Below, in pieces: positions 12,241 through 35,941 of a stretch of 64,000 nt of DNA. Numbering within the stretch: position 1 is the stretch's first letter; each line of letters begins with the position of its first letter. The position numbers and the translations under genes were made by a program. The notes under the pieces are model-generated. The model was not told the DNA's origin. It did not search any database and was given only the letters and a program-made list of their open reading frames with translations. This stretch comes from Clostridia bacterium (lineage in GTDB: Bacteria > Bacillota > Clostridia > Acetivibrionales > DSM-27016), in the NCBI GenBank assembly GCA_026414765.1, contig JAOAIJ010000029.1, positions 1-64,000 on the forward strand, written 5' to 3'.

Positions 12241-12261
12241 TTGTTTTGAGGTGATATTAAA

Positions 12262-14333: not shown

Positions 14334-14369
14334 ATTTTGCAAACTATTTTATTAAGGAGAATCCTAAAT

Positions 14370-14987
14370 ATGATTGCAATAATTGATTATGGGATGGGCA
14401 ACACGTTTTCCGTATTCAATGCTTTAGACTATATAGGAGTTGAAGCGGTTATTACAAATAAGGAGACGGAAATAAAGAATGCTGATAGGATTATCCTTCC
14501 AGGTGTCGGTGCATTTGGTGATTGTATAGAAAACTTAAAACAATTAGGGTTAAAGGATCTTTTAATGGAAGAAGTAGTAGAAAAAGGTAAGCCATTTATG
14601 GGGATTTGTCTGGGAATGCAGGTTTTGGCTGATTACGGTACGGAAAAAGGTATATTTGAGGGTCTAGGGTGGATAAAGGGTAATGTTCAGAGATTTCTAG
14701 TTGAGGATCAGTCCTTGAAAATTCCCCATGTAGGCTGGAATGACATAAATATTGAAAAAGAAACCCCACTATTTAAAGGTCTAATAAAAGAGCGGGCTTT
14801 CTATTTTGTACACAGTTATCATTTTGAGGCACAAAATAAAGAAGAAGTTTTAGCAACCTGCGACTATGGTGGGAATTTTAATGCAGCTTTAATCAAAGAC
14901 AATATTTTCGCTACACAGTTTCATCCTGAAAAAAGCCAAAAGAATGGACTAATTGTACTGGAGAACTTTGTTAAGTGGAGGGTCTGA
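14370..14987 (+). CDS. hisH: HisH-like glutamine amidotransferase subunit
   Basis: 205 residues from the ATG at 14370, preceded by AAGGAG (14354-14359). Class I glutaminase with nucleophile Cys80 in GICLGMQ and the His185/Glu187 dyad in FHPEKS; IIDYGMGN and LPGVGAFGD are typical of HisH. It delivers ammonia from glutamine. No other histidine-biosynthesis gene is nearby, and the neighbours are WbuX-like and HisF-like, so this is the sugar-modification paralogue (HisH2), not the histidine enzyme. It overlaps closely with the HisF-like gene, which suggests translational coupling. Confidence 0.85.
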   Translation: MIAIIDYGMGNTFSVFNALDYIGVEAVITNKETEIKNADRIILPGVGAFGDCIENLKQLGLKDLLMEEVVEKGKPFMGICLGMQVLADYGTEKGIFEGLGWIKGNVQRFLVEDQSLKIPHVGWNDINIEKETPLFKGLIKERAFYFVHSYHFEAQNKEEVLATCDYGGNFNAALIKDNIFATQFHPEKSQKNGLIVLENFVKWRV

Positions 14988-14989
14988 AT

Positions 14990-15748: not shown

Positions 15749-15759
15749 GGAGGGTATGT

Positions 15760-16773: not shown

Positions 16774-16799
16774 AAGCTTATATTTTGGAGAAACTAGCT

Positions 16800-17726: not shown

Positions 17727-17745
17727 ATTACGAGGAGATGAAGTT

Positions 17746-19047: not shown

Positions 19048-19087
19048 GTGTAAAATGTATTAATATTTGCAATGAAAGGTATAAGAT

Positions 19088-20137: not shown

Positions 20138-20150
20138 TATAAGGTAGGAG

Positions 20151-21083
20151 ATGGTTGTTATTAGAATTTTATTTATGGGTGGACATGAGCTTGGAAAAAT
20201 TGCTCTCGAAAGTCTCATTAAAAGTAACAAAAACATTATTGGTGTTGTTATAACCGATACCACAGATGAGTGGTATAAGGGTGTAGATGAGGTTGCCCAA
20301 AAGCATAGTATACTGGTTTTTAAAGAAAAGAATATTAATAATACAGACTTTGTAGTGACGGTAAGGAAAATGTCACCAGAATTAATTGTAGTAGTTAATT
20401 TCGATCAAATATTAAAAGAAGAAATTATTAGTATCCCAATAAAAGGGTGTATAAACACACATGCTTCATTACTTCCTAAATATAGGGGTAGAGCACCTCT
20501 TAATTGGGCAATTATTAATGGTGAAAAGGAAACCGGTGTTACAGTACACTATATAAATAAAGGTATTGATACAGGCGATATAATAGTTCAGGTTAGTATA
20601 GATATTGAAGAGAATGATTATATAGAAGATATTCTAGGAAAAGTAAAGAAAGTATATTCATATATAGTTAAAGATAGTGTTGAGAAAATTATTAAAGGTA
20701 CAGTTGTTCCTATAAAACAAGATATATCTAGTGGGTGCTATTGTTCAAAAAGAACGCCTAAGGATGGTCAGATAAACTGGGATAAGCCAGCAATACAAAT
20801 ATATAACTTAATTAGGGCTACCTCTGAACCTTATCCAGGTTCTTATACTTATTATAACGGGTTTAAGGTTATCATTTGGAAAGCAGAATTGGCAGAACAG
20901 GATCAGAAACATAGAGAGTATAAAAATGGGAAGGTTCTAGAGGTTCGGGATAATCATATTTTAGTGAAATCTGTGGGTAATAATTTGAAGATTACCAAGT
21001 ACGACATAATAAGTGATAAAAACCAATTTGTTAGAATAAGAGAAAATGAAAGTTTTAATTTCAAGGATGATATAAATGATTAA
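20151..21083 (+). CDS. Sugar N-formyltransferase-like protein (second of two)
   Basis: 310 residues from the ATG at 20151. The strong purine run AGGTAGGAG abuts this ATG; using AAGG (20141-20144) as the ribosome site gives normal spacing. The family usually begins M-R-I-L-F-M-G, which would correspond to an ATT at 20160. Canonical Fmt-type motifs are complete: NTHASLLPKYRGRAPLNWAI gives the Asn/His pair and KGIDTGDI the Asp. It is closer to typical Fmt/ArnA-type formyltransferases than the paralogue at 15760. It overlaps the PseG-like gene by 8 bases. It is expected to formylate an amino sugar, taking the place of the usual PseH/LegH acetyltransferase; that substitution is inferred. Confidence 0.8.
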   Translation: MVVIRILFMGGHELGKIALESLIKSNKNIIGVVITDTTDEWYKGVDEVAQKHSILVFKEKNINNTDFVVTVRKMSPELIVVVNFDQILKEEIISIPIKGCINTHASLLPKYRGRAPLNWAIINGEKETGVTVHYINKGIDTGDIIVQVSIDIEENDYIEDILGKVKKVYSYIVKDSVEKIIKGTVVPIKQDISSGCYCSKRTPKDGQINWDKPAIQIYNLIRATSEPYPGSYTYYNGFKVIIWKAELAEQDQKHREYKNGKVLEVRDNHILVKSVGNNLKITKYDIISDKNQFVRIRENESFNFKDDIND

Positions 21084-22155
21084 AGTAGCCTTTAGGGCGG
21101 ATGGTGGACCGCAAATGGGAATGGGGCATATTATAAGATGCCTTTCATTAGCCAGCGAATTTAGAAAGCAAGGTTTTGATGTAATTTTTCTCAGTAAATA
21201 TCAAGAAGGAATTGATCGGATAATTAATGAAAAATTTGAAATTTTCCGCTTAGAAAGCACATTTAGTGCTGTAGAGCATGAACAAGGATTCCATTATGGA
21301 GATATGTTATCTTTGGAAAAAGAAGCAGGAGAAATAATAAAGTGCATTAATGAAAACTGTATTGATATATTGGTTGTAGACAGTTATAACGTAACACATG
21401 AGTATTTACTGCTAATAAAAAAATTTGTAAAGATACTTTCATATATTGATGATATTAATAAGTTTACATACCCTGTTAATATTCTTATAAATGGAAATAT
21501 TACAGGAGAATATATGAATTATACCAAATACTATAATGATGAGATTATGCTGCTAGGGCCTAAATACAATTTAATAAGAAATGAGTTTAAAAATATTCCT
21601 TTAAGAAGTATTAATAGAAAGATAAATAAGATAATGATAACTACGGGAGGAGCTGATCCGTACAATCTTACCTGTAAGATAGTAGAGGATTTAATGGAAG
21701 ATAGTTACTTTAACAATATTACTTTTAATATTATTGTTGGTAATGCGTTTACAAATAAAGAGGAAATAATAAAAATGGTTGGAAGATATAGTAATTTAAT
21801 CCTACATGAAAATGTGAAAAGTATGGCCAAAATTATGCTCGATTCAGATATAGCAATATCATCAGGTGGAAGTACTCTTTATGAATTATGTGCTTGCGGG
21901 ACTCCAACTACGGCAATTATCCTTGCAAATAATCAGGAGTTCATAGTAAAAAAGATGGATGAGGCTGGATATGTAATTGATTTAGGATGGTATAATGAAA
22001 TGAAAAAAGATATCATAACAAAAAAGATAAAGCAACTATCTGAGAACTATAGCCATAGACTTGAATTGTGTAAAAGAGCAATAGGATTGATAGATGGTTA
22101 TGGAACAGAGCGGATAGTTGAAGTCTTTAGAAAGTATATTAATGTATTGTTGTAA
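21076..22155 (+). CDS. PseG-like UDP-sugar hydrolase
   Basis: 359 residues, start overlapping the previous stop by 8 bases (ATGATTAA). GT-B type fold with the PseG signature RADGGPQMGMGHIIRCLSLA at the N-terminus, a GGADPYNLTCKI nucleotide-binding turn and SGGSTLYELCACGTPT near residue 275. PseG removes UDP from a 2,4-diamido-trideoxyhexose to release the sugar that PseI condenses with PEP. This completes the dehydratase - (lost aminotransferase) - acyl/formyl transferase - hydrolase - synthase - cytidylyltransferase route. After its TAA the reading frame stays open for 29 more codons (to about 22245) without a start, which may be chance. Confidence 0.87.
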   Translation: MIKVAFRADGGPQMGMGHIIRCLSLASEFRKQGFDVIFLSKYQEGIDRIINEKFEIFRLESTFSAVEHEQGFHYGDMLSLEKEAGEIIKCINENCIDILVVDSYNVTHEYLLLIKKFVKILSYIDDINKFTYPVNILINGNITGEYMNYTKYYNDEIMLLGPKYNLIRNEFKNIPLRSINRKINKIMITTGGADPYNLTCKIVEDLMEDSYFNNITFNIIVGNAFTNKEEIIKMVGRYSNLILHENVKSMAKIMLDSDIAISSGGSTLYELCACGTPTTAIILANNQEFIVKKMDEAGYVIDLGWYNEMKKDIITKKIKQLSENYSHRLELCKRAIGLIDGYGTERIVEVFRKYINVLL

Positions 22156-23851: not shown

Positions 23852-23968
23852 CACAATACTGTATTAGAAATACTATTTCTAATTACATACAAGTTAATTA
23901 CTTGAGGGAGAATTTATATATTATTGAGTAACTATTTGTGTGTGGAAAAGGTTATGGAGGGAATTGAA

Positions 23969-25759
23969 TTGAAGAATCTGAAAGATGAAGCTACTACATA
24001 TTTTGTTGCTACTACAGCTTTAGAAGATTTTTGGGACAAATCAAAACCCATAATTTTTCTTGGCGAGTGGTGTATGCGGCATAGTAGAAAAGAAGGTTGG
24101 GAAAACCTTGATCATAAGGTTGTTACTAATATGTGGGAAGATGTAAATAAGCATAGAGAAGCATTTTACTATATACTTGATTTATATGAAAGAGTATTGG
24201 ATTCACTAGGAAATAGCCTAAACACTTTACATGGTGTAAATTATAGCAACAGGTATTGGAGGATATTGCTTGGCCCGTGGCTCTACCATTACTTAAGCAG
24301 TACGTATGACAGATTTTTGTCTATAAAAATGATCATGACTGATTACGGTCAGTTTGAAACAATGGGATTAAAGGAAGAATCTTTTTTTGTACCGGAAGAT
24401 ACAATTGAATTTATTTCATTAATTAATGATGATCCTTACAATCTTCAATTTTATACTAAAATAATGACTTTCTTTAACATTAAATTTGAAAAGAAGTATC
24501 TTGATATTACTCCAGAACAGATAGGGTATTCTGGTCCAATCACTCTAAAAAAGAAGTTTAGTGATAAAATCAATGAGGTGCTTAAATCTATTGTTAGATT
24601 AGTCAGCAACAAAAACTCTATCTTAATGACACTATCCAATTTTAGAAGAAATAATATTCTAAAAATGACAATAGGGTCATGTGGAAAAATATTGCCATTT
24701 GAGTTTAATAATTCGAAAAAGATTGGTTTTATGCCAGTGAACCAAGAAAGTAGGTTAGTGGTAAAGAATTTTTTTAATATTAATTCTAATAATGAGTTTG
24801 AAATATTTTTATCAACAGTAATAGCTAATGACATACCAAAATGCTTTATTGAGGGATATAACGAAATAAAAAGGGGAGTTGAAAAAAATTATCCGCTAAA
24901 TATTAAAGCATTATTTACAGTTTATGGCTGGTATTTTGATGAGACTTTCAAGCAATGGGCTGGGATGCTAACCGAAAGAGGCGTGCATCTTTTAGGTGCC
25001 CAACATGGGGGTAATTATGGCGTTGAAGAGTTTTTTTTCTTTGACAGGCATGAAACAAAAATATCAGATAGGTTCTATTCGTGGGGATGGGATAGATTTA
25101 CTAATACTGCAAACATAGTACCTATGCCAGCACCTAAACTTGTTGACAGGAATAAAATTGAAGCACATAATAATTTTGAAGGTATTCTATATACAACAAC
25201 TTCTATAACAAGATATTTAGTAAGGTTTCAGGAACCAAAAAGTTTTTCGGATAATTATGAAAACTGGCAGAAAAGATTTGTTTGTACAATTTCTTCAAAT
25301 ATACGAGAAAGAATCCGTATACGTCTCCACGGTGAAATGTTCGGAAGAGATTATGACATGAAATGGAAGGAACTGAAATACGGACATCTTATAGAAAGTT
25401 ATGATAGTATTAGTTTTTTAGAGAGCATGACCCAATGCCGTATTTATGTTTGCGACCATTTATCTACAACGTTTCTGGAGGCACTTTCTGCGAATAAACC
25501 AACAATTTTGTTCTGGGATCCGGAAATGTTTGTGCTTAATAGTGAAGCAGAAGTAGATTATAGCGAATTACGAAGGATGGGAATTTTATATTATACACCA
25601 GAAGAGGCGGCGGTGGCTATAAATAGAATATACCCCAATGTGGAAGAATGGTGGAATGATAATGAAAGGCAGGAGGTTATAATTAATTTCTGCAAAAAAT
25701 ATGTTTTAGTATCTGACTCTGCTTTAAATCAATGGCTGCGAGAACTAAAAAAGATATGA
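23969..25759 (+). CDS. LIC12162-family putative transferase
   Basis: 596 residues from the TTG at 23969, which lies 8 bases after GGAGGG (about 23957-23961); an earlier TTG at 23924 is poorly placed. The N-terminus TTYFVATTALEDFWD...IIFLGEWCMRHSRK and the LLGPWLYHYLSSTYDRF segment are characteristic of the LIC12162 family named from Leptospira O-antigen loci. The C-terminal half has GT-B-like elements (LLGAQHGGNYG, RIRLHGE, then a CDHLSTTFLEALSANKPTILFWD donor-site-like stretch near 510). The reaction is not established to my knowledge. Co-occurrence with nonulosonic-acid genes suggests it moves a CMP-ulosonic acid; inference. Confidence 0.8.
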   Translation: MKNLKDEATTYFVATTALEDFWDKSKPIIFLGEWCMRHSRKEGWENLDHKVVTNMWEDVNKHREAFYYILDLYERVLDSLGNSLNTLHGVNYSNRYWRILLGPWLYHYLSSTYDRFLSIKMIMTDYGQFETMGLKEESFFVPEDTIEFISLINDDPYNLQFYTKIMTFFNIKFEKKYLDITPEQIGYSGPITLKKKFSDKINEVLKSIVRLVSNKNSILMTLSNFRRNNILKMTIGSCGKILPFEFNNSKKIGFMPVNQESRLVVKNFFNINSNNEFEIFLSTVIANDIPKCFIEGYNEIKRGVEKNYPLNIKALFTVYGWYFDETFKQWAGMLTERGVHLLGAQHGGNYGVEEFFFFDRHETKISDRFYSWGWDRFTNTANIVPMPAPKLVDRNKIEAHNNFEGILYTTTSITRYLVRFQEPKSFSDNYENWQKRFVCTISSNIRERIRIRLHGEMFGRDYDMKWKELKYGHLIESYDSISFLESMTQCRIYVCDHLSTTFLEALSANKPTILFWDPEMFVLNSEAEVDYSELRRMGILYYTPEEAAVAINRIYPNVEEWWNDNERQEVIINFCKKYVLVSDSALNQWLRELKKI

Positions 25760-25809
25760 TATGAAATATGTATAACAAGTTTGATAATAATAATGTAGAG
25801 GTACTCCTG

Positions 25810-26481
25810 ATGACATTCAATGTATTTAAGAAAGTACAAAGAGAAAAAAACAACAAAAAGTTCTTATACGATCGCATATGTGCTTTATATATAAAGGGAC
25901 AAGACTTTTTGTCTGTTTTTTTTGGCACCTTTGTTTTTAGGCTAAAAGCATTCATGTTTGGAGTGGAATATGGAAGAGGTATCAAATGTTATGGACCAAT
26001 ACATATAATAAGGGCGGTAGGAAGTAAAATAAGTGTAGGTAATAATGTAATGTTCTTATCATCTTCTCCAAGATGCACTGCTAGCTCAATATATGCACCA
26101 GTGAGGCTAAAGACATATTCTGATACAGCACAAATTATTATTGAAGATGATGCAGGAATTAACGGAACGTCTATTACAGCTAGGACAAGATGCATCTATA
26201 TAGGTAGGAATACAAGGTTGGCACCTAATGTTACAATAATGGATTCAGATTTTCATGCTTTATGGCCACCTGAAACAAGAATGGAGAATCCTGCTTTGGA
26301 AGAAGATAGGGATGTAAGAATTGGTAATAATGTTTGGATAGCAACACAGTGTATCATACTTAAAGGGGTAACAATAGGGGAAAATTCAATTATTGCAGCA
26401 GGTAGCGTTGTAACTGGAGACATACCTCCAAATGTCATAGCTGGTGGAGTACCTGCAAAAGTAATTCGAAATTTACCATAG
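25810..26481 (+). CDS. Hexapeptide-repeat acyltransferase (WbbJ/LbH family)
   Basis: 223 residues from the ATG at 25810 with AGAGG upstream; an ATG at 25768 would add 14 residues with no site. Left-handed beta-helix hexapeptides run from about residue 75 to 215. DSDFHALWP holds the catalytic His region, and GNNVWIATQCIILKGVTIGENSIIAAGSVVTGDIPPNVIAGGVPAKVI is the standard closing repeat. It probably O- or N-acetylates a sugar of the glycan. The N-terminal 60 residues include a hydrophobic segment that may associate with the membrane. Confidence 0.85.
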   Translation: MTFNVFKKVQREKNNKKFLYDRICALYIKGQDFLSVFFGTFVFRLKAFMFGVEYGRGIKCYGPIHIIRAVGSKISVGNNVMFLSSSPRCTASSIYAPVRLKTYSDTAQIIIEDDAGINGTSITARTRCIYIGRNTRLAPNVTIMDSDFHALWPPETRMENPALEEDRDVRIGNNVWIATQCIILKGVTIGENSIIAAGSVVTGDIPPNVIAGGVPAKVIRNLP

Positions 26482-26494: not shown

Positions 26495-27271
26495 ATGATA
26501 AATCTGAAACAAAAACTCCAAAAGAAAGAACTTACTATAGGTTCATGGATCAGTATAGGGCATCCGAATGTTGCAGAAATAATGGCCCAGTCTGGATTTG
26601 AGTGGCTGACGATTGACTTGGAACATAGCGCCATATCAATCAGTCAAGCCCAGGAGCTCATCAGGGTGATTGAATTGTCAGATGTTGTTCCTTTAGTTAG
26701 AATTGGGGAGAATGATCCTACTATCATAAAGAGGGTCATGGATGCAGGTGCCCATGGTATAATCGTCCCAATGGTCAACTCAAAGGAGGAAGCTGAGGCG
26801 GCAGTCAGTGCTATGAGGTATCCACCTGTTGGAAAACGTGGGGTAGGCTTATCCAGGGCACAAAAATATGGTTATGGATTTGATGACTACAGAAAATGGG
26901 TAGAAAATGACAGTGTACTGGTAGTGCAGATAGAGCATATAAATGCAGTAGAAAACCTGGAGGGAATATTGAGAACTCCAGGAATTGATGCTTTTATGGT
27001 GGGGCCATATGATCTTTCGGGTTCACTTGGTATTCCAGGAGATTTTACACATCCCAAAATGATCGAAGCTCTTAATGAGATAAAAAGGATTTCGGAAAAA
27101 ATGAATGCAACCTCCGGATTCCATGTAGTTTTTCCGCAAAAGGAATCGGTCAATCAAAAGATAAAAGATGGTTACTCTTTTATTGCATATGGAGTAGACT
27201 TTATATATATTGGAGATTCCTGCAGAAGGGCATTGAAAGAAATAGATGGAAATAGATTTGCGGAGGCTTGA
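26495..27271 (+). CDS. HpcH/HpaI-family aldolase
   Basis: 258 residues, preceded by GAGAGG. Class II pyruvate aldolase fold with all expected residues: His44 (DLEHS), Arg69 (LVRIGEND), Glu147 (QIEH) and Asp173 (GPYDLSGSLG), plus KRGVGLSRA. Such enzymes join or split pyruvate and an aldehyde to give 4-hydroxy-2-oxo acids. Sitting 1 kb upstream of a KdsB-like gene with no KdsA in sight, it could make a 3-deoxy-2-ulosonic acid for CMP activation, a role not established for the family in glycan loci. Base composition of this and the next six genes is clearly less AT-rich than the genes before it. Confidence 0.85.
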   Translation: MINLKQKLQKKELTIGSWISIGHPNVAEIMAQSGFEWLTIDLEHSAISISQAQELIRVIELSDVVPLVRIGENDPTIIKRVMDAGAHGIIVPMVNSKEEAEAAVSAMRYPPVGKRGVGLSRAQKYGYGFDDYRKWVENDSVLVVQIEHINAVENLEGILRTPGIDAFMVGPYDLSGSLGIPGDFTHPKMIEALNEIKRISEKMNATSGFHVVFPQKESVNQKIKDGYSFIAYGVDFIYIGDSCRRALKEIDGNRFAEA

Positions 27272-27274
27272 TAT

Positions 27275-28258
27275 ATGAAAGAAAATGATATTCGTAAAAA
27301 GGAAGCACATGAGACATATTTAAGACTGGTCAAGGAAGATTGTGAAAAATATTTTAGCGATTCAGAAAGCTTTTATATAGGTAGGTGTCCTGCATGTGTG
27401 AATGAAAGCTATTCTAGCCAATTTGAAAAGAGCTCTTTCAAATACGTGACATGTGACAGCTGCAATACCTTATATGCAAAGACAAGACCTTCGCTGGATA
27501 AGCTCAATGAATTCTATTCTAAGTCGGTTTCTACTTCATATTGGGTCAATGAGTTTTTTATGCCTGTTGCGGAAGCCAGAAGAGAGAAAATTTTCCGACC
27601 AAGGGCGGAGTACTTTGCTCAACGCTTCGGTGAGGATCCACAGTGGAGAATAGGAGATATCGGAGCCGGGTTTGGTATTTTCTTGGATGAATTACGGAAG
27701 CTTTGGCCTAGCTCCAGCTATACAGCGATAGAGCCATCTAGTGAGCAGGCGGAGATTTGCCGGAAGCAAGGATTCCAAACCGAGTGTTCAATGTTAGAAG
27801 ATTTAAAAGGATATGATGATTACTTTGATTTCCTGACAGCCTTTGAATTGATGGAGCATCTGTCAGATCCAGCAGAGTTTCTGTCAAAAGTACATAGACT
27901 GTTAAAGCCGGGGGGGTGGCTCTGGATGAGTACTCTTAACGGAGAAGGCTTTGATATTCAGGTTCTTTGGAAAGATTCAAAAAGTATCTATCCTCCTGCA
28001 CATATCAACTTTTTTAATCCTGATTCACTCAGTAGTCTGCTTGAATCTGTCGGATTTGAGGTATTAGAGGCGGAAACCCCCGGGCAGCTAGACTGGAATA
28101 TAGTAGAAGATGCAATTAGTATAAGGGATGAAAAAGAAGATAGATTTTGGAAACTGGTAGCAAAAAAAGCTACTCCTGAAGCTAAGAAGGAATTGCAGGA
28201 ATGGATAAAAAATAACAGATTCAGTTCTCACATGAGGATATTAGCAAGGAAAAGGTAG
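27275..28258 (+). CDS. SAM-dependent methyltransferase with zinc-ribbon N-terminus
   Basis: 327 residues, start 4 bases after the aldolase stop. CPAC near residue 38 and CDSC near 64 suggest a zinc ribbon, as in C-methyltransferases of deoxysugars (Methyltransf_13/14 type). Class I SAM-binding motif IGDIGAGFGIFLDEL near 128, LTAFELMEHLSDP and RLLKPGGWLWMST follow. Likely methylates the sugar formed by the neighbouring aldolase/KdsB pathway, or a glycan position. Translational coupling to the aldolase supports a joint pathway. Confidence 0.82.
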   Translation: MKENDIRKKEAHETYLRLVKEDCEKYFSDSESFYIGRCPACVNESYSSQFEKSSFKYVTCDSCNTLYAKTRPSLDKLNEFYSKSVSTSYWVNEFFMPVAEARREKIFRPRAEYFAQRFGEDPQWRIGDIGAGFGIFLDELRKLWPSSSYTAIEPSSEQAEICRKQGFQTECSMLEDLKGYDDYFDFLTAFELMEHLSDPAEFLSKVHRLLKPGGWLWMSTLNGEGFDIQVLWKDSKSIYPPAHINFFNPDSLSSLLESVGFEVLEAETPGQLDWNIVEDAISIRDEKEDRFWKLVAKKATPEAKKELQEWIKNNRFSSHMRILARKR

Positions 28259-28283
28259 AATAAGAATTGGAAGGTGATTTTAT

Positions 28284-29039
28284 ATGAAAATAGTTGCTGT
28301 TGTACCCGCAAGAATGAGTGCAACTAGATTTCCAGGCAAGCCTCTGGCAAATATCTCCGGATTACCGATGATTGAGCATGTCCGTAGAAGGGTTGCCATG
28401 TGTTCGTTGATTGATGATGTTTTTGTAGCAACATGTGATAAAGAAATTTATGAGGCTGTCGTTAATTTTGGCGGAAAGTCTGTAATGACAGCTGATACGC
28501 ATGAGCGGTGCACTGATAGGGTCGCTGAAGCTGCTCTTGATATAGACGCTGATATAATTGTAAATGTGCAAGGTGATGAGCCTCTGGTAATGCCCGAAAT
28601 GTTTGAACCTCTTTTAAAGCCTTTGATTGATGATAAGGGTGTATATTGTACGAACCTGATGGCAGAGATTCATGAAGAACAGGATTTCGTCAGTTCAAAT
28701 GTAGTGAAAACAGTTTATGACCTGTCAGGTAATGCGGTTTATTTTTCCAGGGAACCTATACCTTCTGCAAGTAAAGCAAAAGGAATGAGCTATAAGAAAT
28801 ATAAGCAACTTGGTATTATTGCATTTAGAAAAGATTTCTTACAGAAATTCACTGCATTGACACCGACTCCTTTGGAGATTGTTGAATCAGTGGATATGTT
28901 AAGAGCTATTGAACATGGGTATAAGATCCGAATGGTTTTGACTGAGTTCCAATCTATAGGTGTCGATACGCCTGAGGATTTGGAAAGAGCAGAAAAACTC
29001 ATGGCAAAGGACAAGCTTGTTAAAAACTACATTAGATGA
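28284..29039 (+). CDS. kdsB: 3-deoxy-manno-octulosonate cytidylyltransferase-like (KdsB family)
   Basis: 251 residues, AAGGTG upstream. The full KdsB signature is present: VVPARMSATRFPGKPL (CTP loop), RCTDRVAEAA, VNVQGDEPLVMP (metal site), YFSREPIPS and IVESVDMLRAIEHG. The family makes CMP-Kdo or CMP-8-amino-Kdo in Gram-negatives. In a Gram-positive genome, with no kdsA or lipid A genes around, it more likely activates a Kdo-like sugar for the surface glycan. KdsB enzymes are distinct from the SpsF-type gene at 12262, so the locus encodes two separate CMP-sugar syntheses. Confidence 0.85.
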   Translation: MKIVAVVPARMSATRFPGKPLANISGLPMIEHVRRRVAMCSLIDDVFVATCDKEIYEAVVNFGGKSVMTADTHERCTDRVAEAALDIDADIIVNVQGDEPLVMPEMFEPLLKPLIDDKGVYCTNLMAEIHEEQDFVSSNVVKTVYDLSGNAVYFSREPIPSASKAKGMSYKKYKQLGIIAFRKDFLQKFTALTPTPLEIVESVDMLRAIEHGYKIRMVLTEFQSIGVDTPEDLERAEKLMAKDKLVKNYIR

Positions 29040-29057
29040 AACCGGGGTGACACATTA

Positions 29058-30089
29058 ATGAAATCCAATGATAACCTTAGAGTCGGGATTGTGGGTTATG
29101 GAGTGGTAGGAAAACGACGTCGTCATTATATAGATCAGCATCCTAACATGAAGACTGTGGCAGTTTGTGATCAGAATTTCAGTGAACCTTGTGTAATGGC
29201 TGATGGGATTAGGTGTTACAATGATTACAATGAGATTCTTAAAGAGGATTTAGATGCAGTCTTTGTAAGCTTACCGAACTATCTTGCTGCGGAGGTAACT
29301 ATTGCTGGTCTTGAAAGGGGCATGCATATATTCTGTGAAAAGCCTCCGGGCCGTGATGTAGCTGATATAGAAAAGGTTGTGGAAGCTGAAAAAAAGAACA
29401 AAGGACTCGTACTTAAATATGGGTTCAATCACCGGTATCACGAATCCGTCAAGGAGGCCATACGAATTATTAAGTCAGGTGAGCTGGGCGAAATAGTCAG
29501 CTTACGTGGTGTATATGGCAAAAGTAAGATAATCCCATTTTCAGGTGGATGGCGTGCTGAAAGAAAGTATTCAGGTGGTGGAATACTTCTTGATCAAGGC
29601 ATTCACATGGTTGACCTTATGAGGCTCTTCTGTGGAGAGTTTGTTGAAGTGAAAAGCTATATATCAAATAGTTATTGGAAACATGATGTTGAGGATAATG
29701 CATATGCGTTAATGCGTGATAGATTGGGACGGATAGCAATGCTTCATTCCACAGCTACTCAATGGCAACATAAGTTTTCTTTAGAAATCAGCCTTACTGA
29801 AGGGTTTATTGAACTGAGGGGAATCCTGTCAGGTTCAAAAAGCTATGGGCAGGAGATGCTGATATTAGGCAAGAGAGACGAATCGGATGTGGGAGCAACG
29901 CGGGAGCAGGTTACTACATATCTTGAGGATAATTCCTGGAGGGATGAAGTAAACGAATTTGCAGATGCTATACTAAAGGGAATTGAATTGAAATCTGGTA
30001 ACAGTGCTGATGCCCTTGATACAATGAAGCTGATTTATGAGATTTATGGAGCAGATTCAGAATGGTGTTCACGCTTTAATATTAAATGA
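29058..30089 (+). CDS. Gfo/Idh/MocA-family oxidoreductase
   Basis: 343 residues, starting 18 bases after the kdsB-like stop. N-terminal Rossmann motif VGIVGYGVVGKRR, the FCEKPPGRD catalytic-Lys motif near residue 95, and GGGILLDQGIHMVDL with the conserved Asp/His pair. NAD(P)-dependent oxidation or reduction of a sugar hydroxyl/keto group. Wedged between KdsB and a SIS isomerase, it is probably part of the same Kdo-like sugar pathway; the substrate is unknown. Confidence 0.85.
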   Translation: MKSNDNLRVGIVGYGVVGKRRRHYIDQHPNMKTVAVCDQNFSEPCVMADGIRCYNDYNEILKEDLDAVFVSLPNYLAAEVTIAGLERGMHIFCEKPPGRDVADIEKVVEAEKKNKGLVLKYGFNHRYHESVKEAIRIIKSGELGEIVSLRGVYGKSKIIPFSGGWRAERKYSGGGILLDQGIHMVDLMRLFCGEFVEVKSYISNSYWKHDVEDNAYALMRDRLGRIAMLHSTATQWQHKFSLEISLTEGFIELRGILSGSKSYGQEMLILGKRDESDVGATREQVTTYLEDNSWRDEVNEFADAILKGIELKSGNSADALDTMKLIYEIYGADSEWCSRFNIK

Positions 30090-30133
30090 TTTGTTAGTGT
30101 TCGTAGGCTTTATATATGAAAGGAGATGCTTTA

Positions 30134-30751
30134 ATGAATAATATGGAACGCCTTTTTGCAGAAAGTTCAAATGCAAAAGAGTTTGCAGCTGGATATCTTG
30201 ATTATCTGGCAAATCTACTTAGGAAACTAGATTTAGATGAAATAACAGCGTTTATAGACGAAATGGATAGGTGCCATAAAAGTCAGAATAATATATTCAT
30301 TGTCGGGAATGGAGGCTCCGCGGCAACTGCTTCACATATGGTAAACGACTTAGGGATGGATGTGTTAAAAAAAGCAGGTATTGAAGTTCCTTTCCGTGCT
30401 ATGTCACTGACTGATAATATTCCCTTGATAATGGCTATATCTAATGATGACAGTTATGATAATGTGTTTGTGAATCAACTTAAGATATATTATAAAGAAG
30501 GCGATATCCTTATAGGAATTTCTGCAAGTGGAAACTCGCCTAACATAATAAATGCGGCGGAGTGGGTAAAGCAAAGAAATGGTAAGGTAATAGGACTTAC
30601 TGGTTTTGATGGAGGAAAGCTTAAAGAAATCAGTGACATAGTGGTCCATGTAGACACTCCGAAAGGTGAGTATGGACCTGTAGAAGACATCCATTTGGTT
30701 ATTAACCACCTATTAGCTATGTGGTTTCAAAACAAGATGAAGGTAAGGTAA
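30134..30751 (+). CDS. SIS-domain phosphosugar isomerase (GmhA/KdsD-like)
   Basis: 205 residues from the ATG at 30134, 8 bases after AAAGGAG; the ATG at 30116 overlaps that site and is rejected. SIS fold with FIVGNGGSAATASHMVNDL near residue 55, ISASGNSPNIINA near 120 and a closing E-D-I-H-L-V-I-N-H-L helix. It resembles sedoheptulose-7-phosphate isomerase (GmhA) more than the two-domain KdsD, lacking CBS domains. Family members interconvert aldose and ketose phosphates, here plausibly supplying the aldehyde acceptor for the aldolase at 26495. Confidence 0.82.
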   Translation: MNNMERLFAESSNAKEFAAGYLDYLANLLRKLDLDEITAFIDEMDRCHKSQNNIFIVGNGGSAATASHMVNDLGMDVLKKAGIEVPFRAMSLTDNIPLIMAISNDDSYDNVFVNQLKIYYKEGDILIGISASGNSPNIINAAEWVKQRNGKVIGLTGFDGGKLKEISDIVVHVDTPKGEYGPVEDIHLVINHLLAMWFQNKMKVR

Positions 30752-30809
30752 GAAAAGTGATATAGTGGGCTTTTGTCGTAAATTTTGGGATTGAAAGGAA
30801 GGGTCATTT

Positions 30810-31727
30810 ATGAAGCTTGTGGTTGCGATAGGAGCGTCTTCCTTCGCTGTAGAGGATGATACTCCATTGAGACTGTTAATAGATTCAGGAGTGGAAGTCA
30901 GAAATAATACATATGGACGCCGTCTGACAGAAGAGGAGACAATTCAGCATCTTAGGGGTGTGGACGGCTTACTTGCAGGGTTGGAACCCTTGAATAAAAA
31001 TGTCCTTTCAGCATCACCTGAACTAAAGGCTATTGCCAGAATTGGTATAGGTATGACAAATGTTGACATAGTGGAAGCAAAAGAACGTGGTATCAAAGTA
31101 TCAAATACACCTGACGGGCCTACTAAAGCTGTAGCTGAGATGACCCTGACTGCTGCATTGGCATTATGCCGTAAGCTAACGGTTGAAAACTCATTATTAC
31201 ACCAAGGCAGGTGGGAAAAACACATAAGTAGTAGTCTAGACGGTGCGAAGGTTTTGATTATCGGGTATGGCCGCATCGGAAGACGCACGGGTGAATTGTT
31301 TCAAGTTTTTGGTGCAGATATACTTGTAGTTGATCCAGCTGTAAAACCAGAGATGCTTTGCAATAATGAAAGGTTGGTGTCACTGGAAGAGGGATTGAAT
31401 GAGGCTCAATTGATTTCAATTCATGCAAGCGGTACTGATGTCTTACTGGGACACAGGGAGTTTGAACTGATGAAAGAGGGTGTAATTCTGCTGAATTCGG
31501 CACGCGGTGAGTTGGTAGATGAAAATGCCCTTGTTCGTGCATTGGATGAGGAAAGGGTCAGTGGTGCTTGGTTTGATGCCTTCTGGGAAGAACCTTACAA
31601 AGGAGTGCTTTGCAGGTATGAACAGGTCTTGCTTACTCCCCATGTCAGCACATATACTCGGGAGTGCCGTCTTTCGATGGAAACAGAAGCAGTAAAGAAC
31701 TTGCTTAGAGATTTGGGGGTAAGGTAG
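30810..31727 (+). CDS. D-2-hydroxyacid dehydrogenase (SerA-like)
   Basis: 305 residues; GAAAGGAAGG upstream. Two-domain D-isomer hydroxyacid dehydrogenase: substrate domain with IARIGIGMTNVD, NAD-binding VLIIGYGRIGRRTGEL, catalytic Arg near 232 in SARGELVDENAL, Glu in EEPY and His278 in TPHVST. There is no ACT or ASB domain, so it is shorter than SerA of serine biosynthesis. Located among sugar genes, it may reduce or oxidise the 2-keto acid function of an intermediate. Its stop overlaps the next start by one base. Confidence 0.82.
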   Translation: MKLVVAIGASSFAVEDDTPLRLLIDSGVEVRNNTYGRRLTEEETIQHLRGVDGLLAGLEPLNKNVLSASPELKAIARIGIGMTNVDIVEAKERGIKVSNTPDGPTKAVAEMTLTAALALCRKLTVENSLLHQGRWEKHISSSLDGAKVLIIGYGRIGRRTGELFQVFGADILVVDPAVKPEMLCNNERLVSLEEGLNEAQLISIHASGTDVLLGHREFELMKEGVILLNSARGELVDENALVRALDEERVSGAWFDAFWEEPYKGVLCRYEQVLLTPHVSTYTRECRLSMETEAVKNLLRDLGVR

Positions 31728-32482
31728 TGGAGTGGCAGGCTGAACTGGAAATGGCTGTTTGTGCTGCAAAAGCAGCAGGAGATAAGCTTAAGGAATTACA
31801 AAACGGTTGTTTGGATATTATCAGTGAGTATGGGAAGGATATAAAATTAGGAGCAGACAGAGAAGCGGAGAGTATGATTATACAAACGCTTACAAGCAAT
31901 AGCAGATACCCGGTTTTGGCTGAGGAAAGCGGAGAACATGGAAAAATTGATGGAGATGAGCCTGTTTGGATTATAGATCCTTTAGATGGTACATTCAATT
32001 ATAGTAGGAATATCCCATTATGCTGTGTATCTATTGCTCTCTGGAAAGGGAAAAGGCCAATTCTGGGTGTCATAAATAATTTTAATACAGGTGAGATATA
32101 TACGGGTATAGTAGGTGTCGGTGCATGGTGTAATGATAAGATGATATCAGTATCACAAATTCAGAAGGAAGAAGCGGCTGTTTTAGTAACAGGGTTTCCT
32201 GTCAATAGGGATTTTGGACAAGACTCTCTTATGAGCTCTATATCTCAGATTAAGTCATTCAAAAAAATCAGAATGCTAGGAACTGCTGCGTTGTCACTTG
32301 CATATGTAGCGTGTGGATATGCAGATACATATATAGAAGAGAATATCATGTTTTGGGATGTTGCCGCGGGGATTGCTCTGGTTGAAGCGGCAGGAGGATG
32401 GATTAGCTTTAAAGATTCTGTTAATAAGAAATGGGCTAAGGATGTAATATGTTCTTCATTTAGAATTGATAGCTCGAAATAA
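31727..32482 (+). CDS. Inositol monophosphatase-family phosphatase
   Basis: 251 residues; GTG start overlapping the TAG of the previous gene (TAGTG) with GGGGGTAAGG before it. Metal-binding motifs are complete: ESGEHG near residue 66, WIIDPLDGTFNYSR near 83, and FWDVAAGIALVEAAGG near 208. Mg-dependent sugar-phosphate phosphatase. In the KdsB block it could replace KdsC by removing a phosphate before CMP activation; inferred from position only. Confidence 0.82.
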   Translation: MEWQAELEMAVCAAKAAGDKLKELQNGCLDIISEYGKDIKLGADREAESMIIQTLTSNSRYPVLAEESGEHGKIDGDEPVWIIDPLDGTFNYSRNIPLCCVSIALWKGKRPILGVINNFNTGEIYTGIVGVGAWCNDKMISVSQIQKEEAAVLVTGFPVNRDFGQDSLMSSISQIKSFKKIRMLGTAALSLAYVACGYADTYIEENIMFWDVAAGIALVEAAGGWISFKDSVNKKWAKDVICSSFRIDSSK

Positions 32483-32559
32483 ATTATGAAAGATTGTACC
32501 CAATGAATTTTTTAGTAGCCAAGAATAATTAAGAAATCAGTCAAAGTGGGGTGAGACTA

Positions 32560-34338
32560 TTGAGAGACAACCTCATTGTGTTTTATAGGGATGTTAAAAA
32601 AGCATCATTGATGCTCAATGGAGAGAAATATTTATGGACATACCTTGGTAGTGATGTAAAAGGAAAAAAGGAAACTGCTGCCTTGCTAGGGGATGATAGC
32701 CGTCTTTTGATAGGAGAACTTCTACAGAGCGAGGCATATAGAATTAAAGATAGCTTTATGGAATTTGTAACCGATATTGGGTTTAACAAAAAAAACATGC
32801 TTAATTGGTGGGCTTTGAATTTTGCAAGCAAAAGTCCCCTTCAGGGGGATTTATTTAAGCTCTATTGCTTTGAAGCGGTTATTAAGGATATGTCTAAAAA
32901 GCACTCATCTGATAATTTGGTTTTCATCATTGAGGATGTGTGGTTTTATAAATACTTAGCGAGCAACTACAGGAAGGAATACACGTTTATCGGTAAGCGG
33001 AGCCGTTTACCCAGTGCTTTCAGATTAGCTCTATTGGGAGTATATTCTGGACTAGACATATGCTTTGGTATGCTAAAAAACAAATTATTCAATAAGAAAA
33101 CTAACAACAAAATCCCGTCAGATATTGATGTATTTATATACTCTTGGGTAGAAGATAGGTTTTTTAAGCAGAATGAAATAGTCAACCCTTATTTCGGACG
33201 ATTGAGTGATATTTTGAATGATGCCGACATCAGGTTTACAAATCTTACACCTTTACATATAAGATCAGATATAAGAAAGAAATGTATAGAAAGCGGAAAG
33301 TTTATAATTCTAGATAGCTATGTTGGTGTGACTGATCTTATCAAGAGTGTTTTTTCAACCATTATGATCACTTGTTTTGCGTTACTAAAATTTTCTGGAC
33401 AGAGTTCTCTGTTGTTAAGAGAGATTTTTTACGAGTTTTCCAATGTCTCGTTTTTCACTAACAAATTGACATACTATGCGTTTGTTAACTGGGCAAAGAG
33501 TATTGGCGATAGAAAAATCAGTTTCATATATACTTTTGAAAATCATCCGTGGGAAAAACTCATGTGTATTGCATGTAAAAAACATTCCTTGAATACTCGG
33601 TTGGTGGGATACCAGCACTCTACAATACCTCAGCTATTGCTAAATTATTTCTTTACGGAAAAGGAAGGCGAAATAATGCCTCTTCCTGACTATATTGTTG
33701 CAAACGGTGAGCATTATCAAAATGTTTTGATAGAAGCGGGATATGCAAAAAGAGTAAATGTAATCAATGGTGGAGCATTAAGATATGAAGCGTTGCACAA
33801 TTTGAAAGCGACAGATGATGATATTGACACTATGTACAAAAAGGTATTGATCATTTTTCCATCTTCAAGAGTCCTGACGGAAGAAATTCTATTGGTTTTA
33901 ATCGATTATTGTAATGAATTCTCGGCCCAAGACTTTGAATTTCTGTTAAAGTTTCATCCTGATACACCAATGAAGACCTTACAGGATTTATTAGAGGAGT
34001 TACCTGATAATTTCAGAGTGTCAAAAAGTCCTATGAATGAAGTATTGGCTGAAGCTGGGCTTGTCATATATTCATCGTCTACATCAGGATTGGAAGCTTT
34101 ATTGGCTGGGAAAAAAGTTGTGAAATACTATTCAGAACATGCTATAGATCTTGATCCTCTTGACTCGTTTACCGAGGTAGAAATTAGAAGTTGTTTCGAG
34201 GGGAATATGCGTGATATAATTTTGTCTATGTTTAATGAAAAAGATTTCCTTTGTCAAAGGAAAGACATTCTGAACTTAAGTAAAGTGTTCTCTCCTGTTA
34301 GGGAAGATGTTTGGAAAACTGTATTACTTAATAGATAG
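32560..34338 (+). CDS. Putative surface-polysaccharide glycosyltransferase (GT-B-like, unknown donor)
   Basis: 592 residues from the TTG at 32560, preceded by GGGGTGAG (32548-32555); a GTG at 32551 overlaps that site. I cannot place it firmly. The C-terminal half has GT-B features: YQHSTIPQL near residue 350, GGALRYE, LIIFPSSRV, FLLKFHPD and an IYSSSTSGLEALLAGKKVVKY donor-site loop, reminiscent of CMP-sialic/Kdo and CDP-glycerol-type transferases. The N-terminal half is helical and unlike anything I recognise. As the last gene of the KdsB block it is the natural candidate to transfer the CMP-activated Kdo-like sugar. Functionally comparable to, but not obviously homologous with, the LIC12162-type protein at 23969. 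Confidence 0.65.
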   Translation: MRDNLIVFYRDVKKASLMLNGEKYLWTYLGSDVKGKKETAALLGDDSRLLIGELLQSEAYRIKDSFMEFVTDIGFNKKNMLNWWALNFASKSPLQGDLFKLYCFEAVIKDMSKKHSSDNLVFIIEDVWFYKYLASNYRKEYTFIGKRSRLPSAFRLALLGVYSGLDICFGMLKNKLFNKKTNNKIPSDIDVFIYSWVEDRFFKQNEIVNPYFGRLSDILNDADIRFTNLTPLHIRSDIRKKCIESGKFIILDSYVGVTDLIKSVFSTIMITCFALLKFSGQSSLLLREIFYEFSNVSFFTNKLTYYAFVNWAKSIGDRKISFIYTFENHPWEKLMCIACKKHSLNTRLVGYQHSTIPQLLLNYFFTEKEGEIMPLPDYIVANGEHYQNVLIEAGYAKRVNVINGGALRYEALHNLKATDDDIDTMYKKVLIIFPSSRVLTEEILLVLIDYCNEFSAQDFEFLLKFHPDTPMKTLQDLLEELPDNFRVSKSPMNEVLAEAGLVIYSSSTSGLEALLAGKKVVKYYSEHAIDLDPLDSFTEVEIRSCFEGNMRDIILSMFNEKDFLCQRKDILNLSKVFSPVREDVWKTVLLNR

Positions 34339-34435: not shown

Positions 34436-35941
34436 ATGGTAGTAAGTAGCAGAAAAATAAAGAGGGTTCTTTTGATTACTCCTCCAGCATTTACATTTGC
34501 GGATAATATTGATATTAATCCTGTACCACCTCTTGGACTTGCGTATATAGCAGCTGTTTTGGAGAAAAACGGTATAGAGGTTAAAATTGTAGATAGTCTT
34601 ATCGAAGGATGGGACAATAGGGTAGTCATTCACGATAATGTAATCAGAGTGGGATTGAACTTTGATGAAATTAAAGATATTATTACAGAATTTTCTCCTG
34701 ATATTGTAGGGGTAAGTAATCTTTTTAGTAAACAGAGCGAGAATGCTCATGCCATACATGCTAAGGTAAAGGAAATTGACAAAAATATAATAACAGTTGC
34801 CGGTGGGGCTCATCCTACAGTAATGCCTGAAAAAGTCCTAAGTGATAATAATGTTGATTTTGTAATCATGGGTGAGGGAGAATTCGTCTTTATTGACCTT
34901 ATCAGGGAAATAGAAGGACAACAGAGATTTGATACTCTGGATGGTGTAGGTTATCACGATGCAGGCGAGATTAGGATAAACCCAAAAACTAGTTTCATTG
35001 AAAATCTGGATGAAATCCCATTTCCAGCAAGGCATCTTCTAAACATGGAAAAGTATTATGGACTTAACGCTTCTCATGGTGAAAGAAGAAAAAGAAAGTT
35101 TTCTCCTATTATTACATCAAGAGGTTGTCCTGCCAATTGTACTTTCTGTTCTGCCCATAAAGTATGGGGTAAAAGGTATAGATACCGTTCTGCAGAAAAT
35201 GTTGTCGCGGAAATGAAAGAACTTAAGGAAAAGTTCGGAATAGAAGAACTTATGTTTGAAGATGATAATCTGACACTTAATCCTAAGAGGGCAGAGAAAA
35301 TTTTCGATATGATGATAGAGCAGAAGCTTGACTTTGTATGGGATACCCCCAACGGTGTAGCGGCATATTCATTGAATGAGGCGTTAATTGATAAAATGAA
35401 ACTAAGTGGATGCTATAATATAAATCTGGCTGTGGAAACAGGCAACCAGTATATAATGGATAACGTAATCAAAAAGCCGTTAAAACTTGAAAATGTTAAA
35501 CCGATTATTGAATATGCTAGAAAAATCAAGATAAAAGTGGGAATTTTTCTTGTTATTGGTATGCCAGGAGAAACAGTGGAACAAATATGGGACAGTTTTC
35601 GCTTTGCTAGAGAACTGAAGATTTATTACCCTCATATCTCTGTTGCTACTCCTTACCCAGGTTCCGTGCTTTATGACACTTGTGTCGAAAACAAGTATAT
35701 TTCTGAAACTTTTTCTACTGATGACTTGTATATAAGAAGTTTTAGCATAACAACTGAAAACTGGGATGGGGATAAGCTTCAACAGTTACTGCAAGAGGGT
35801 CATGAATACCTGTTGGCAGCATATTTTAGGGACAATCCTATAAAATTTATGGCAGCACATCTACCCAAACTGGTAGTAAGACCATTGACCTTAATGAAAA
35901 AAACTTTTAGGATGCTTAAGGCGGCTAAAGGAAAAGGATGA
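34436..35941 (+). CDS. B12-binding radical SAM protein (BchE-like)
   Basis: 501 residues; GAGGTATAGG upstream. N-terminal cobalamin-binding domain (residues about 10-150: PPLGLAYIAAVLE, VGVSNLFSKQ, VAGGAHPTVMPE) followed by the radical SAM core with Cys231, Cys235 and Cys238 in SRGCPANCTFCSAH for the 4Fe-4S cluster, and ETGNQ and VGIFLVIGMPGET for SAM binding. Family members methylate unactivated carbons or rearrange skeletons. In this locus it may C-methylate or otherwise remodel a sugar or lipid carrier; the substrate is unknown. No DxHxxG motif is seen, which is usual for B12 sites of this group. Confidence 0.85.
   Translation: MVVSSRKIKRVLLITPPAFTFADNIDINPVPPLGLAYIAAVLEKNGIEVKIVDSLIEGWDNRVVIHDNVIRVGLNFDEIKDIITEFSPDIVGVSNLFSKQSENAHAIHAKVKEIDKNIITVAGGAHPTVMPEKVLSDNNVDFVIMGEGEFVFIDLIREIEGQQRFDTLDGVGYHDAGEIRINPKTSFIENLDEIPFPARHLLNMEKYYGLNASHGERRKRKFSPIITSRGCPANCTFCSAHKVWGKRYRYRSAENVVAEMKELKEKFGIEELMFEDDNLTLNPKRAEKIFDMMIEQKLDFVWDTPNGVAAYSLNEALIDKMKLSGCYNINLAVETGNQYIMDNVIKKPLKLENVKPIIEYARKIKIKVGIFLVIGMPGETVEQIWDSFRFARELKIYYPHISVATPYPGSVLYDTCVENKYISETFSTDDLYIRSFSITTENWDGDKLQQLLQEGHEYLLAAYFRDNPIKFMAAHLPKLVVRPLTLMKKTFRMLKAAKGKG

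Follow-up and report, generated by a model that had tools for sequence, protein, structure and literature searches.

Can the carbon skeleton of a cytidine monophosphate (CMP)-activated ulosonic acid be built by an aldolase? This question is raised by a block of eight genes in a Clostridia bacterium (GenBank assembly GCA_026414765.1), located at positions 26495–34338 of a 64,000-nucleotide stretch of contig JAOAIJ010000029.1, which was analysed as a whole and is referred to as the window. In the de novo synthesis of CMP-activated ulosonic acids, both 3-deoxy-D-manno-oct-2-ulosonic acid (Kdo) and sialic-type, the carbon skeleton is known to be built by phosphoenolpyruvate (PEP)-dependent synthases of the KdsA and NeuB families. 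The block encodes a KdsB-like CMP-ulosonate synthetase together with an HpcH/HpaI-type aldolase, and an earlier reading of the sequence (the original prediction) proposed a Kdo-like pathway with the aldolase in place of KdsA. The analysis presented here indicates that the block is likely to encode a pathway of its own, which begins with the aldolase and supplies a surface glycan with an acidic sugar in CMP-activated form; this sugar would be a 2-ulosonic acid, but not Kdo. The observations behind this reading are the gene content, the catalytic positions, the failure to find KdsA in the genome, the clade-wide linkage of aldolase and synthetase, and the altered residues on the sugar side of the synthetase.

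Organization of the gene block

The block consists of eight consecutive and intact open reading frames (ORFs) on the plus strand, with the coordinates first reported. The first gene encodes the class II HpcH/HpaI-type aldolase (26495–27271; PF03328), the proposed carbon–carbon bond-forming enzyme. It is followed by genes for a class I S-adenosylmethionine (SAM) methyltransferase with a four-cysteine N-terminal motif (27275–28258; Methyltransf_23), the KdsB-like CMP-ulosonate synthetase (28284–29039; CTP_transf_3, TIGR00466, PRK13368), whose residues on the sugar side are altered, a Gfo/Idh/MocA sugar oxidoreductase (Gfo; 29058–30089; GFO_IDH_MocA, PF01408/PF22725) and a GmhA-like SIS sugar-phosphate isomerase (30116–30751; SIS_2, PF13580). 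The last three encode a D-2-hydroxyacid dehydrogenase (HADH) resembling phosphoglycerate dehydrogenase (PGDH) (30810–31727; 2-Hacid_dh, PF02826/PF00389), a sugar phosphatase of the inositol-monophosphatase family (IMP; 31727–32482; Inositol_P, PF00459), and a TIGR04326-like transferase of GT-B fold, below the cut-off of that model, which is a candidate glycosyltransferase for the product (GT; 32551–34338). All genes of the original prediction are thus present and closely packed. Its short gaps were also found (3, 25, 18, 26, 58 and 68 bp, from the coordinates), but the several overlaps that it mentioned reduce to a single one, of 1 bp at 31727 between the HADH and IMP genes.

Linkage of the aldolase with CMP-ulosonate synthetases

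A collection of species genomes was scanned with a three-sequence alignment of the aldolase, and the best 80 of 199 relatives were retained; with the window and one additional locus (L059, genome G101), 82 loci were analysed. Partner genes were counted within 8 kb of the aldolase by hidden Markov models (HMMs); L058 was left out of these counts, as it lies on the same contig as L081. The NCBI labels name 21 phyla, with nine loci unlabelled and five labelled archaeal. A KdsB-type or NeuA-type synthetase was present in 80 of the 82 loci, and the two loci without one (L111 and L112) sit at contig ends. The median gap between aldolase and synthetase was 442 bp; both genes were on the same strand in 78 of the 80 loci and less than 100 bp apart in 37. 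Groups of similar loci, as in Nitrosomonas and Deferribacteres, inflate the raw counts. After dereplication at 85%, 66 clusters remained, of which 64 had a synthetase, 50 an HADH and 37 a phosphatase.

The linkage is not a general property of the aldolase family. Twenty control loci were assembled around other HpcH/HpaI aldolases, 27–37% identical (15 of 24 matches from the order of the window and 5 of 8 non-cluster matches from its phylum), and neither KdsB-type nor NeuA-type synthetase was found in any of them (0/20); HADH was found in three. The other aldolases from the 58 genomes of the order are remote, the best of them with 37% identity.

Search for KdsA and reverse tests

The assembly comprises 4.56 Mb in 53 contigs and is 96.9% complete, so that some chance of a missed gene remains. 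Within it, a kdsA gene, which the original prediction had named as a finding that would speak against it, was not found: the best score with TIGR01362 was 122.6 bits against a cut-off of 314. The top scores belong to two ORFs of 342 and 341 amino acids (aa), likewise the sole PF00793 matches of the genome, which are read from family and length as 3-deoxy-D-arabino-heptulosonate 7-phosphate synthases of the aromatic pathway. LpxC had no match in this assembly either, consistent with a cell that lacks lipid A. Full-length synthases of the NeuB family number two, the PseI of the window and one on contig C28, which also bears a cytidylyltransferase-family match. There is no evident PEP-dependent partner for the KdsB-like enzyme in the genome. 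At the level of genes, the second CMP-ulosonate that the original prediction expected in one cell is borne out, since the window also encodes the PEP-type nonulosonate synthase PseI (481 bits, cut-off 340) and PseG (232 bits, cut-off 154). The C28 genes, at about 3743–8919 of that contig, raise the further point that the organism may make three CMP-ulosonates.

The association was also examined from the side of KdsB. KdsB was matched in 102 of 398 genomes of the phylum, and the 43 with E values of 1e-35 or better were taken. KdsA scored above its cut-off in 36 of these 43, and an aldolase of the cluster type occurred only in G000, G191 and G101, all of them without KdsA. A similar test covered 392 archaeal genomes, from the phylum of a Methanoperedens genome, with KdsB at 1e-30 or better in 14. 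An HpcH-type aldolase lay within 8 kb of KdsB in seven of the nine genomes without KdsA and in none of the five with it (Fisher p 0.02); one of the seven (G457, the genome of L078) had first been met in the scan for the aldolase, which leaves independent counts of 6/8 and 0/5. Moreover, KdsA was above cut-off in none of 14 module-bearing genomes that are likely to lack lipopolysaccharide (LPS), that of the window included; these were hand-chosen from the 82, many are metagenome-assembled genomes of unknown completeness, and one has only a NeuA-like synthetase (L115) and another neither type (L112).

Two observations on other KdsB genes without KdsA came from the same genomes. In a genome of the phylum (L156, G069; 1359–3682) and in an archaeon (L206, G766; 3086–8153), such a KdsB lies near an HMGL-like protein of 530–550 aa, similar to 4-hydroxy-2-oxovalerate aldolase, which is perhaps another aldolase-type route. 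In addition, L206 and L207 (G489) encode a third type of KdsB, with M, V, F, E and Y at E. coli positions 181, 185, 187, 210 and 211; it adjoins a divergent HpcH aldolase, and no KdsA match was found in these two genomes.

The KdsB-like synthetase and its predicted substrate

The protein encoded at 28284 scores above the cut-offs of PRK13368 (316 against 255 bits) and TIGR00466 (181 against 155 bits). Roles have been described for R10, T14, R15, K19, D95 and D219 of Aquifex KdsB (PMC3149649), and the CTP and metal motifs (R10, R15, K19, QGDEP and the second Asp) are kept both in aldolase-linked and in comparison KdsBs. The difference lies elsewhere. Where E. coli KdsB has H181, Y185, Y187, E210 and Q211, the window protein has Q175, I179, F181, D204 and M205. 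Among 55 aldolase-linked KdsBs (from 56 loci, rows under 180 aa being dropped) these residues are Q in 54, I in 49, F in 53, D in 54 and M in 54. The canonical H, Y, Y, E and Q were found in 28/28 at each position in the comparison set, made of E. coli and 27 loci of the phylum, mostly from KdsA-bearing genomes. One comparison row (L053, G390) comes from a genome with no KdsA above the cut-off, yet has the canonical residues. In a quick tree, a branch with SH-aLRT 100 separates the 55 sequences from the 28 of the comparison set, among them that of E. coli.

The swapped positions map to the area of the C-terminal domain, described as Kdo-binding in the Aquifex report (PMC3149649). A motif RHIGVYAYR is termed substrate-binding in another paper (PMC7717453), and E. 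coli residues 180–188 were matched to it by spacing. The residues are called sugar-side from domain and motif position, and their direct contacts with the sugar are putative, above all those of E210 and Q211. Because these residues are swapped, the product is probably not Kdo but a related and different ulosonic acid; the "Kdo-like" sugar of the original prediction is probably wrong, and the option of an ordinary Kdo enzyme was rejected on the same grounds.

The aldolase as a separate group

The aldolase is a clear member of its family (HpcH_HpaI, PF03328; 120.8 bits, cut-off 25). Its nearest NCBIfam models are those of the catabolic aldolases HpaI, GarL and RhmA, and it stays below the equivalog cut-offs of all three (185 against 369, 172 against 407 and 164 against 441 bits). 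E43, H44, R69, E147 and D173 (window numbering) are conserved in cluster and control aldolases; H44, R69, E147 and D173 we take, from work on HpaI, to be the base, the pyruvate-binding arginine and the metal ligands. All 82 cluster aldolases also have W18, W37, Q123 and H210. In the tree a branch (SH-aLRT 99) divides these 82 from 21 controls, the latter being the 20 minus one row under 210 aa plus two E. coli rows, a set that includes long branches flagged by the tree program. Against E. coli RhmA and GarL, the cluster aldolases separate with a support of 100/100. Among known structures, RhmA (YfaU) and GarL match more closely than a hydroxyketoacid aldolase (6r62), which is matched at E 1.6e-29.

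A near-constant core with interchangeable parts

The partner counts, of 82, were 66 for HADH, 53 for short-chain dehydrogenase/reductase (SDR), 40 for haloacid dehalogenase (HAD)-type phosphatase, 32 for the methyltransferase, 27 for Gfo, 24 for a PF04199 cyclase-family gene, 16 for SIS, 12 for IMP and 7 for NeuB. Several of these families replace one another. KdsB alone was found in 49 loci and a NeuA-like synthetase alone in 24, with both in 7 and neither in 2 (Fisher p 2e-12), as expected for two ways to do one step. Similarly, Gfo and SDR are nearly exclusive (23 and 49 loci, both in 4, neither in 6; p 4e-11), SIS and HAD phosphatase never occur together (16 and 40 loci, both in 0; p 5e-6), and IMP and HAD phosphatase co-occur in just one of the 82 loci (p 0.003). 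Exclusivity persists after dereplication at 85%, although it is weaker for IMP (p 0.02). The module is therefore a near-constant core of aldolase, CMP synthetase and, often, HADH, to which interchangeable redox and phosphatase parts are added. Hence, the isomerase and phosphatase that the original prediction took as pathway parts are optional as SIS and IMP, with SDR and HAD phosphatase in other loci instead, and its scheme left out HADH, a main partner.

The window belongs to the Gfo/SIS/IMP type, and KdsB with Gfo and SIS or IMP occurs in 13 loci, window included. The search for the same block in other genomes, which the original prediction had proposed, was successful to the extent that two of these loci, from Omnitrophota (L065) and Elusimicrobiota (L067), hold aldolase, methyltransferase, KdsB, Gfo, SIS, HADH and IMP, seven enzymes, all within 8 kb, leaving 10 further loci of the KdsB, Gfo and SIS or IMP type. 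Gene order differs between loci, and phyla are intermixed in the aldolase tree. One of three methyltransferase families was found in 44/56 KdsB loci versus 1/24 NeuA-only loci. On the other side, a gene of the YhcH family, to which N-acetylneuraminate anomerase belongs, is present in 9 of the 24 NeuA-only loci; one member was scanned, and it scored above the cut-off of TIGR00022 and under that of the N-acetylneuraminate anomerase model. Such a gene would make sense if the 2-keto sugar acid must be in the right anomeric form before CMP transfer. A separate variant (L116, L137, L141, L107, L129 and L087) combines HADH, Gfo, SIS, SDR and AroB-related genes with a NeuA-like synthetase, in some cases with YhcH-family and MptE-like genes as well. 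The AroB-related gene of L087, the one scanned, is above the cut-off of TIGR04425, and the variant is a possible sugar-phosphate cyclase branch tied to the same aldolase.

The module may also exist in a reduced form on a plasmid. The top match of the aldolase among plasmids was from Acuticoccus (44% identity, 223 bits; the other 11 listed have 145–174 bits), in an operon of five genes (L181; NZ_CP094833.1, 7986–12438) in which the aldolase is accompanied by an acylneuraminate cytidylyltransferase, a phosphoglycerate dehydrogenase, a HAD hydrolase and an NAD oxidoreductase; this may be close to the minimal module. Beside the aldolases of two weaker haloarchaeal plasmid matches, none of these partner genes appeared in the gene table, which is incomplete. 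A plasmid search with KdsB gave 74 records, with 37–41% identity among the 30 matches listed, and a phage search with the aldolase gave two records at 30% identity. One of these HpcH-family aldolases (OR844989.1, 231519–232217; 30% identity) stands in a 282-kb record named as a Staphylococcus phage, which may be host chromosome.

Other enzymes of the block

In the methyltransferase, C38, C41, C60 and C63 are present in 32/32 homologues. The SIS protein, a single-domain protein of 211 aa, scores 109 bits with the GmhA model TIGR00441, under the cut-off of 209. It retains H61 and H180 of GmhA, while E65 is replaced by D in 17/18 and Q172 by E in 16/18 homologues. Its identity is 28% to E. coli GmhA versus 17% to E. 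coli KdsD, on which a KdsD-type arabinose-5-phosphate isomerase was rejected, a correction to the KdsD role that the original prediction gave to this protein. Only the CMP synthetase is a more frequent partner than HADH, which keeps its R/E/H set (R232, E261 and H278) and D175 in 67–69 of 70 homologues; its best model is PGDH, below cut-off. IMP has the EESGE, DPLDGT and WD metal motifs as in SuhB. The one HAD phosphatase member scanned from other loci is nearest to phosphoglycolate phosphatase, at 40 bits, far below cut-off. As for GT, the TIGR04326 score is 106 bits, under the cut-off of 250. Its AlphaFold model (pLDDT 84.9, from a 15-sequence alignment) has a GT-B fold at residues 190–595, with a best Z of 14.4 (root-mean-square deviation 4.0, 312 aligned residues) to UDP-GlcNAc 2-epimerase. 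UDP-GlcNAc 2-epimerases and other UDP enzymes head the structure matches; lower down come a capsule enzyme with bound CMP, at rank 36, and TarL with CDP-ribitol, at rank 40.

Proposed pathway

From the gene families, a pathway can be proposed in which all reactions and their sequence are predicted, as is the nature of the aldehyde, the donor and the product. In the window, SIS and Gfo would set the aldehyde, a sugar or sugar phosphate. The metal-dependent aldolase would join pyruvate or hydroxypyruvate to this aldose or aldose phosphate to give a 2-keto sugar acid, taking over the job done with PEP by KdsA or NeuB in other pathways; pyruvate, the donor in the original prediction, is plausible, and hydroxypyruvate is possible too. 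A phosphatase (IMP here, HAD-type in other loci) would remove the phosphate to leave the free acid, and the redox and isomerase enzymes (Gfo, SIS and HADH here, SDR and HADH elsewhere) could make or edit aldehyde, donor or product, with the making of hydroxypyruvate as one specific possible role of HADH. The methyltransferase, usual in KdsB-type loci, would add a methyl group at some step. The KdsB-like enzyme would then activate the acid as a CMP-sugar, which the modelled GT-B transferase probably uses, and the reversible aldol reaction might be pulled forward by dephosphorylation and CMP activation. The central idea of the original prediction, an aldolase in place of KdsA that feeds KdsB, is backed by the co-occurrence with its controls, the lack of a KdsA match, the KdsB reverse test and the plasmid operon.

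Alternative explanations and opposing evidence

The closest alternative concerns the donor. HADH and the phosphatase might give hydroxypyruvate from 3-phosphoglycerate or D-glycerate, and its addition by the aldolase would yield an ulosonic acid that retains the 3-hydroxyl (Ko-type) without the use of oxygen. HADH occurs in 66/82 loci with PGDH as its best, sub-threshold model, the scanned HAD phosphatase is nearest to phosphoglycolate phosphatase at a score far under cut-off, and the aldolase matches 6r62 in structure; hydroxyketoacid aldolases of that kind accept hydroxypyruvate. However, RhmA and GarL are closer matches, no feature of the aldolase was found that points specifically to hydroxypyruvate, HADH could take another hydroxy acid and the phosphatase of the window is of IMPase type, all of which leave this variant rather unlikely. 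If it held, hydroxypyruvate (from 3-phosphoglycerate or glycerate via HADH and phosphatase) plus an aldose phosphate would be a third chemistry for CMP-ulosonates, tentatively one that gives CMP-activated, methylated and non-deoxy (Ko-type) acids with neither oxygen nor PEP, also in bacteria and archaea without LPS. It is less probable that the aldolase is a bystander and that the substrate of KdsB is true Kdo or some other ulosonate, supplied by a PEP-dependent synthase elsewhere or by uptake. The match above cut-off to KdsB models and the second NeuB-family gene on C28 speak for it, but no KdsA was found, the swapped sugar-side residues and the clade-wide linkage, compared with 0/20 controls, argue against it, and the C28 synthase shares its contig with a cytidylyltransferase-family gene. 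Alternatively, HADH might make the ulosonate by oxidizing C2 of an aldonic acid, with the aldolase running in the direction of cleavage, in turnover or by-product removal. The frequency of HADH and the catabolic nature of the closest NCBIfam models agree with this, yet the aldolase is often within 100 bp of the synthetase (37/80) and groups apart from other aldolases, and the recurrent neighbours, in the subset of families annotated, are sugar-modifying, synthetase and transferase families; this explanation is improbable, slightly more so than the bystander. A chance assembly of mobile surface-polysaccharide genes with no common pathway could explain the variable gene order and the mixing of phyla in the aldolase tree, and is nonetheless very improbable given the same partners across 21 named phyla, the exclusivity patterns, the grouping of both enzymes by module, the 80/82 linkage against 0/20 in controls and the archaeal reverse test. 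A catabolic cluster was also considered and rejected, as the neighbours, in the subset of families annotated, are unlike those of the 20 control loci.

The reading of the block as an aldolase-first biosynthetic route must also be weighed against several facts that do not favour it. It is a genomic claim, in which all reactions are predicted, and its scheme is incomplete as long as HADH has no settled role; moreover, either phosphatase family (IMP or HAD) was found in only 51/82 loci. The family HMMs were made from the same loci that they score, and NeuA-like genes were counted regardless of other nearby genes; in L090, for example, NeuB lies within 8 kb, and its NeuA may serve another sugar. 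The controls come from the order and phylum of the window only, with flanks of at most 8 kb, several cut at contig ends. The NeuB-family synthase of C28 could in principle feed KdsB, although the contig has its own cytidylyltransferase-family gene. Four genomes of the phylum (G390, G402, G069 and G264) have KdsB with neither KdsA above cut-off nor cluster aldolase, so that a KdsB without KdsA has other explanations too. Among the archaea, the 8-kb surroundings of KdsB in G802 and G651, which have its swapped signature, showed no aldolase; of the seven archaeal aldolases, those of G766 and G489 are divergent, with 162–166 bits, inside the control range of 116–198.

Relation to known systems

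The canonical CMP-Kdo pathway (KdsD, KdsA, KdsC and KdsB) and the block share a synthetase of the KdsB family in which the CTP and metal positions are conserved, and an isomerase, a carbon–carbon bond step, a phosphatase and CMP transfer in one locus. Unlike that pathway, the block has an aldolase instead of the PEP-dependent synthase, with no KdsA or LpxC found in the genome, a GmhA-like isomerase, an IMPase-family phosphatase, a swapped sugar side, and HADH, Gfo and methyltransferase in addition. It should work like a CMP-ulosonate pathway but, with no KdsA found and an altered sugar side, it fails tests that define CMP-Kdo synthesis. The NeuB/PseI–NeuA/PseF pathways to sialic, pseudaminic and legionaminic acids also end in a CMP-activated 2-keto acid sugar, and 24/82 loci have a NeuA/PseF-like enzyme as the sole synthetase found, nine of them with a YhcH-family gene; in contrast, the carbon–carbon bond is proposed to be formed by the HpcH-type aldolase, and NeuB lies within 8 kb in only 7/82. 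With the catabolic HpaI, GarL and RhmA, the aldolase shares family and the conserved E43, H44, R69, E147 and D173; it differs in its separate tree group, its scores under the equivalog cut-offs and its CMP-sugar neighbours.

A genomic island of Bacillus coahuilensis m2-6 is reported to bring kdsB into a Gram-positive species by horizontal acquisition, there with the canonical kdsA, kdsD and kdsC, unlike the block (PMC4744853), and the spread of kdsB1 and kdsB2 is described in another report (PMC4758666). Two transferases at the locus have relatives among families of surface carbohydrate enzymes named after Leptospira, the one in the block as a distant relative, under cut-off, of TIGR04326 (LIC13510) and an upstream one, GT0, as a member of TIGR04331 (LIC12162). 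No description of an aldolase-based CMP-ulosonate pathway was found in a literature search whose coverage of subscription journals is thin, so that this is weak evidence of absence.

Neighbouring genes

The block continues a long co-directional locus for surface glycans, in which the upstream genes include a pseudaminic-type set, a Polysacc_synt (flippase-type) gene, the LIC12162-family transferase and an acetyltransferase-like gene. The transferase, GT0 (23924–25759, plus strand; TIGR04331, 495 bits against 225), is present in 8/82 aldolase loci, window counted, and its model (8 sequences, pLDDT 73.6) gave GT-type structure matches. Kdo transferases were not among the 50 structure matches listed for GT and GT0, which excludes nothing. 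The hexapeptide acyltransferase-like gene (25768–26481, plus strand; PF00132) ends 13 bp before the block, and blastp homologues occur in 9/82 loci. Downstream, a B12-binding radical SAM protein (34436–35941, plus strand; PF04055, PF02310) is a possible tailoring enzyme; its best model is a P-methyltransferase, under cut-off, and relatives are close to the aldolases of L119, L078 and L082. The pseudaminic-type set (10010–22155) comprises PseI and PseG, a WbuX-type amidotransferase, a GATase/HisF-like pair and two genes of the formyltransferase family; its product may be a pseudaminic acid derivative that carries acetamidino or formyl groups. A promoter and terminator scan gave about as many sites as shuffled sequence.

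Significance

If the proposed pathway is true, an aldolase route with its own synthetase group, in some 20 phyla, would be a second biosynthetic logic for CMP-activated ulosonic acids, and model names such as CMP-Kdo synthetase and 2-dehydro-3-deoxyglucarate aldolase could mislead when applied to these genes. The enzymes would be reversible and engineerable ones for CMP-sugar synthesis, useful to glycobiologists. For the organisms themselves, the pathway would imply that the surfaces of Gram-positive bacteria and archaea carry a family of acidic sugars that are not yet known.

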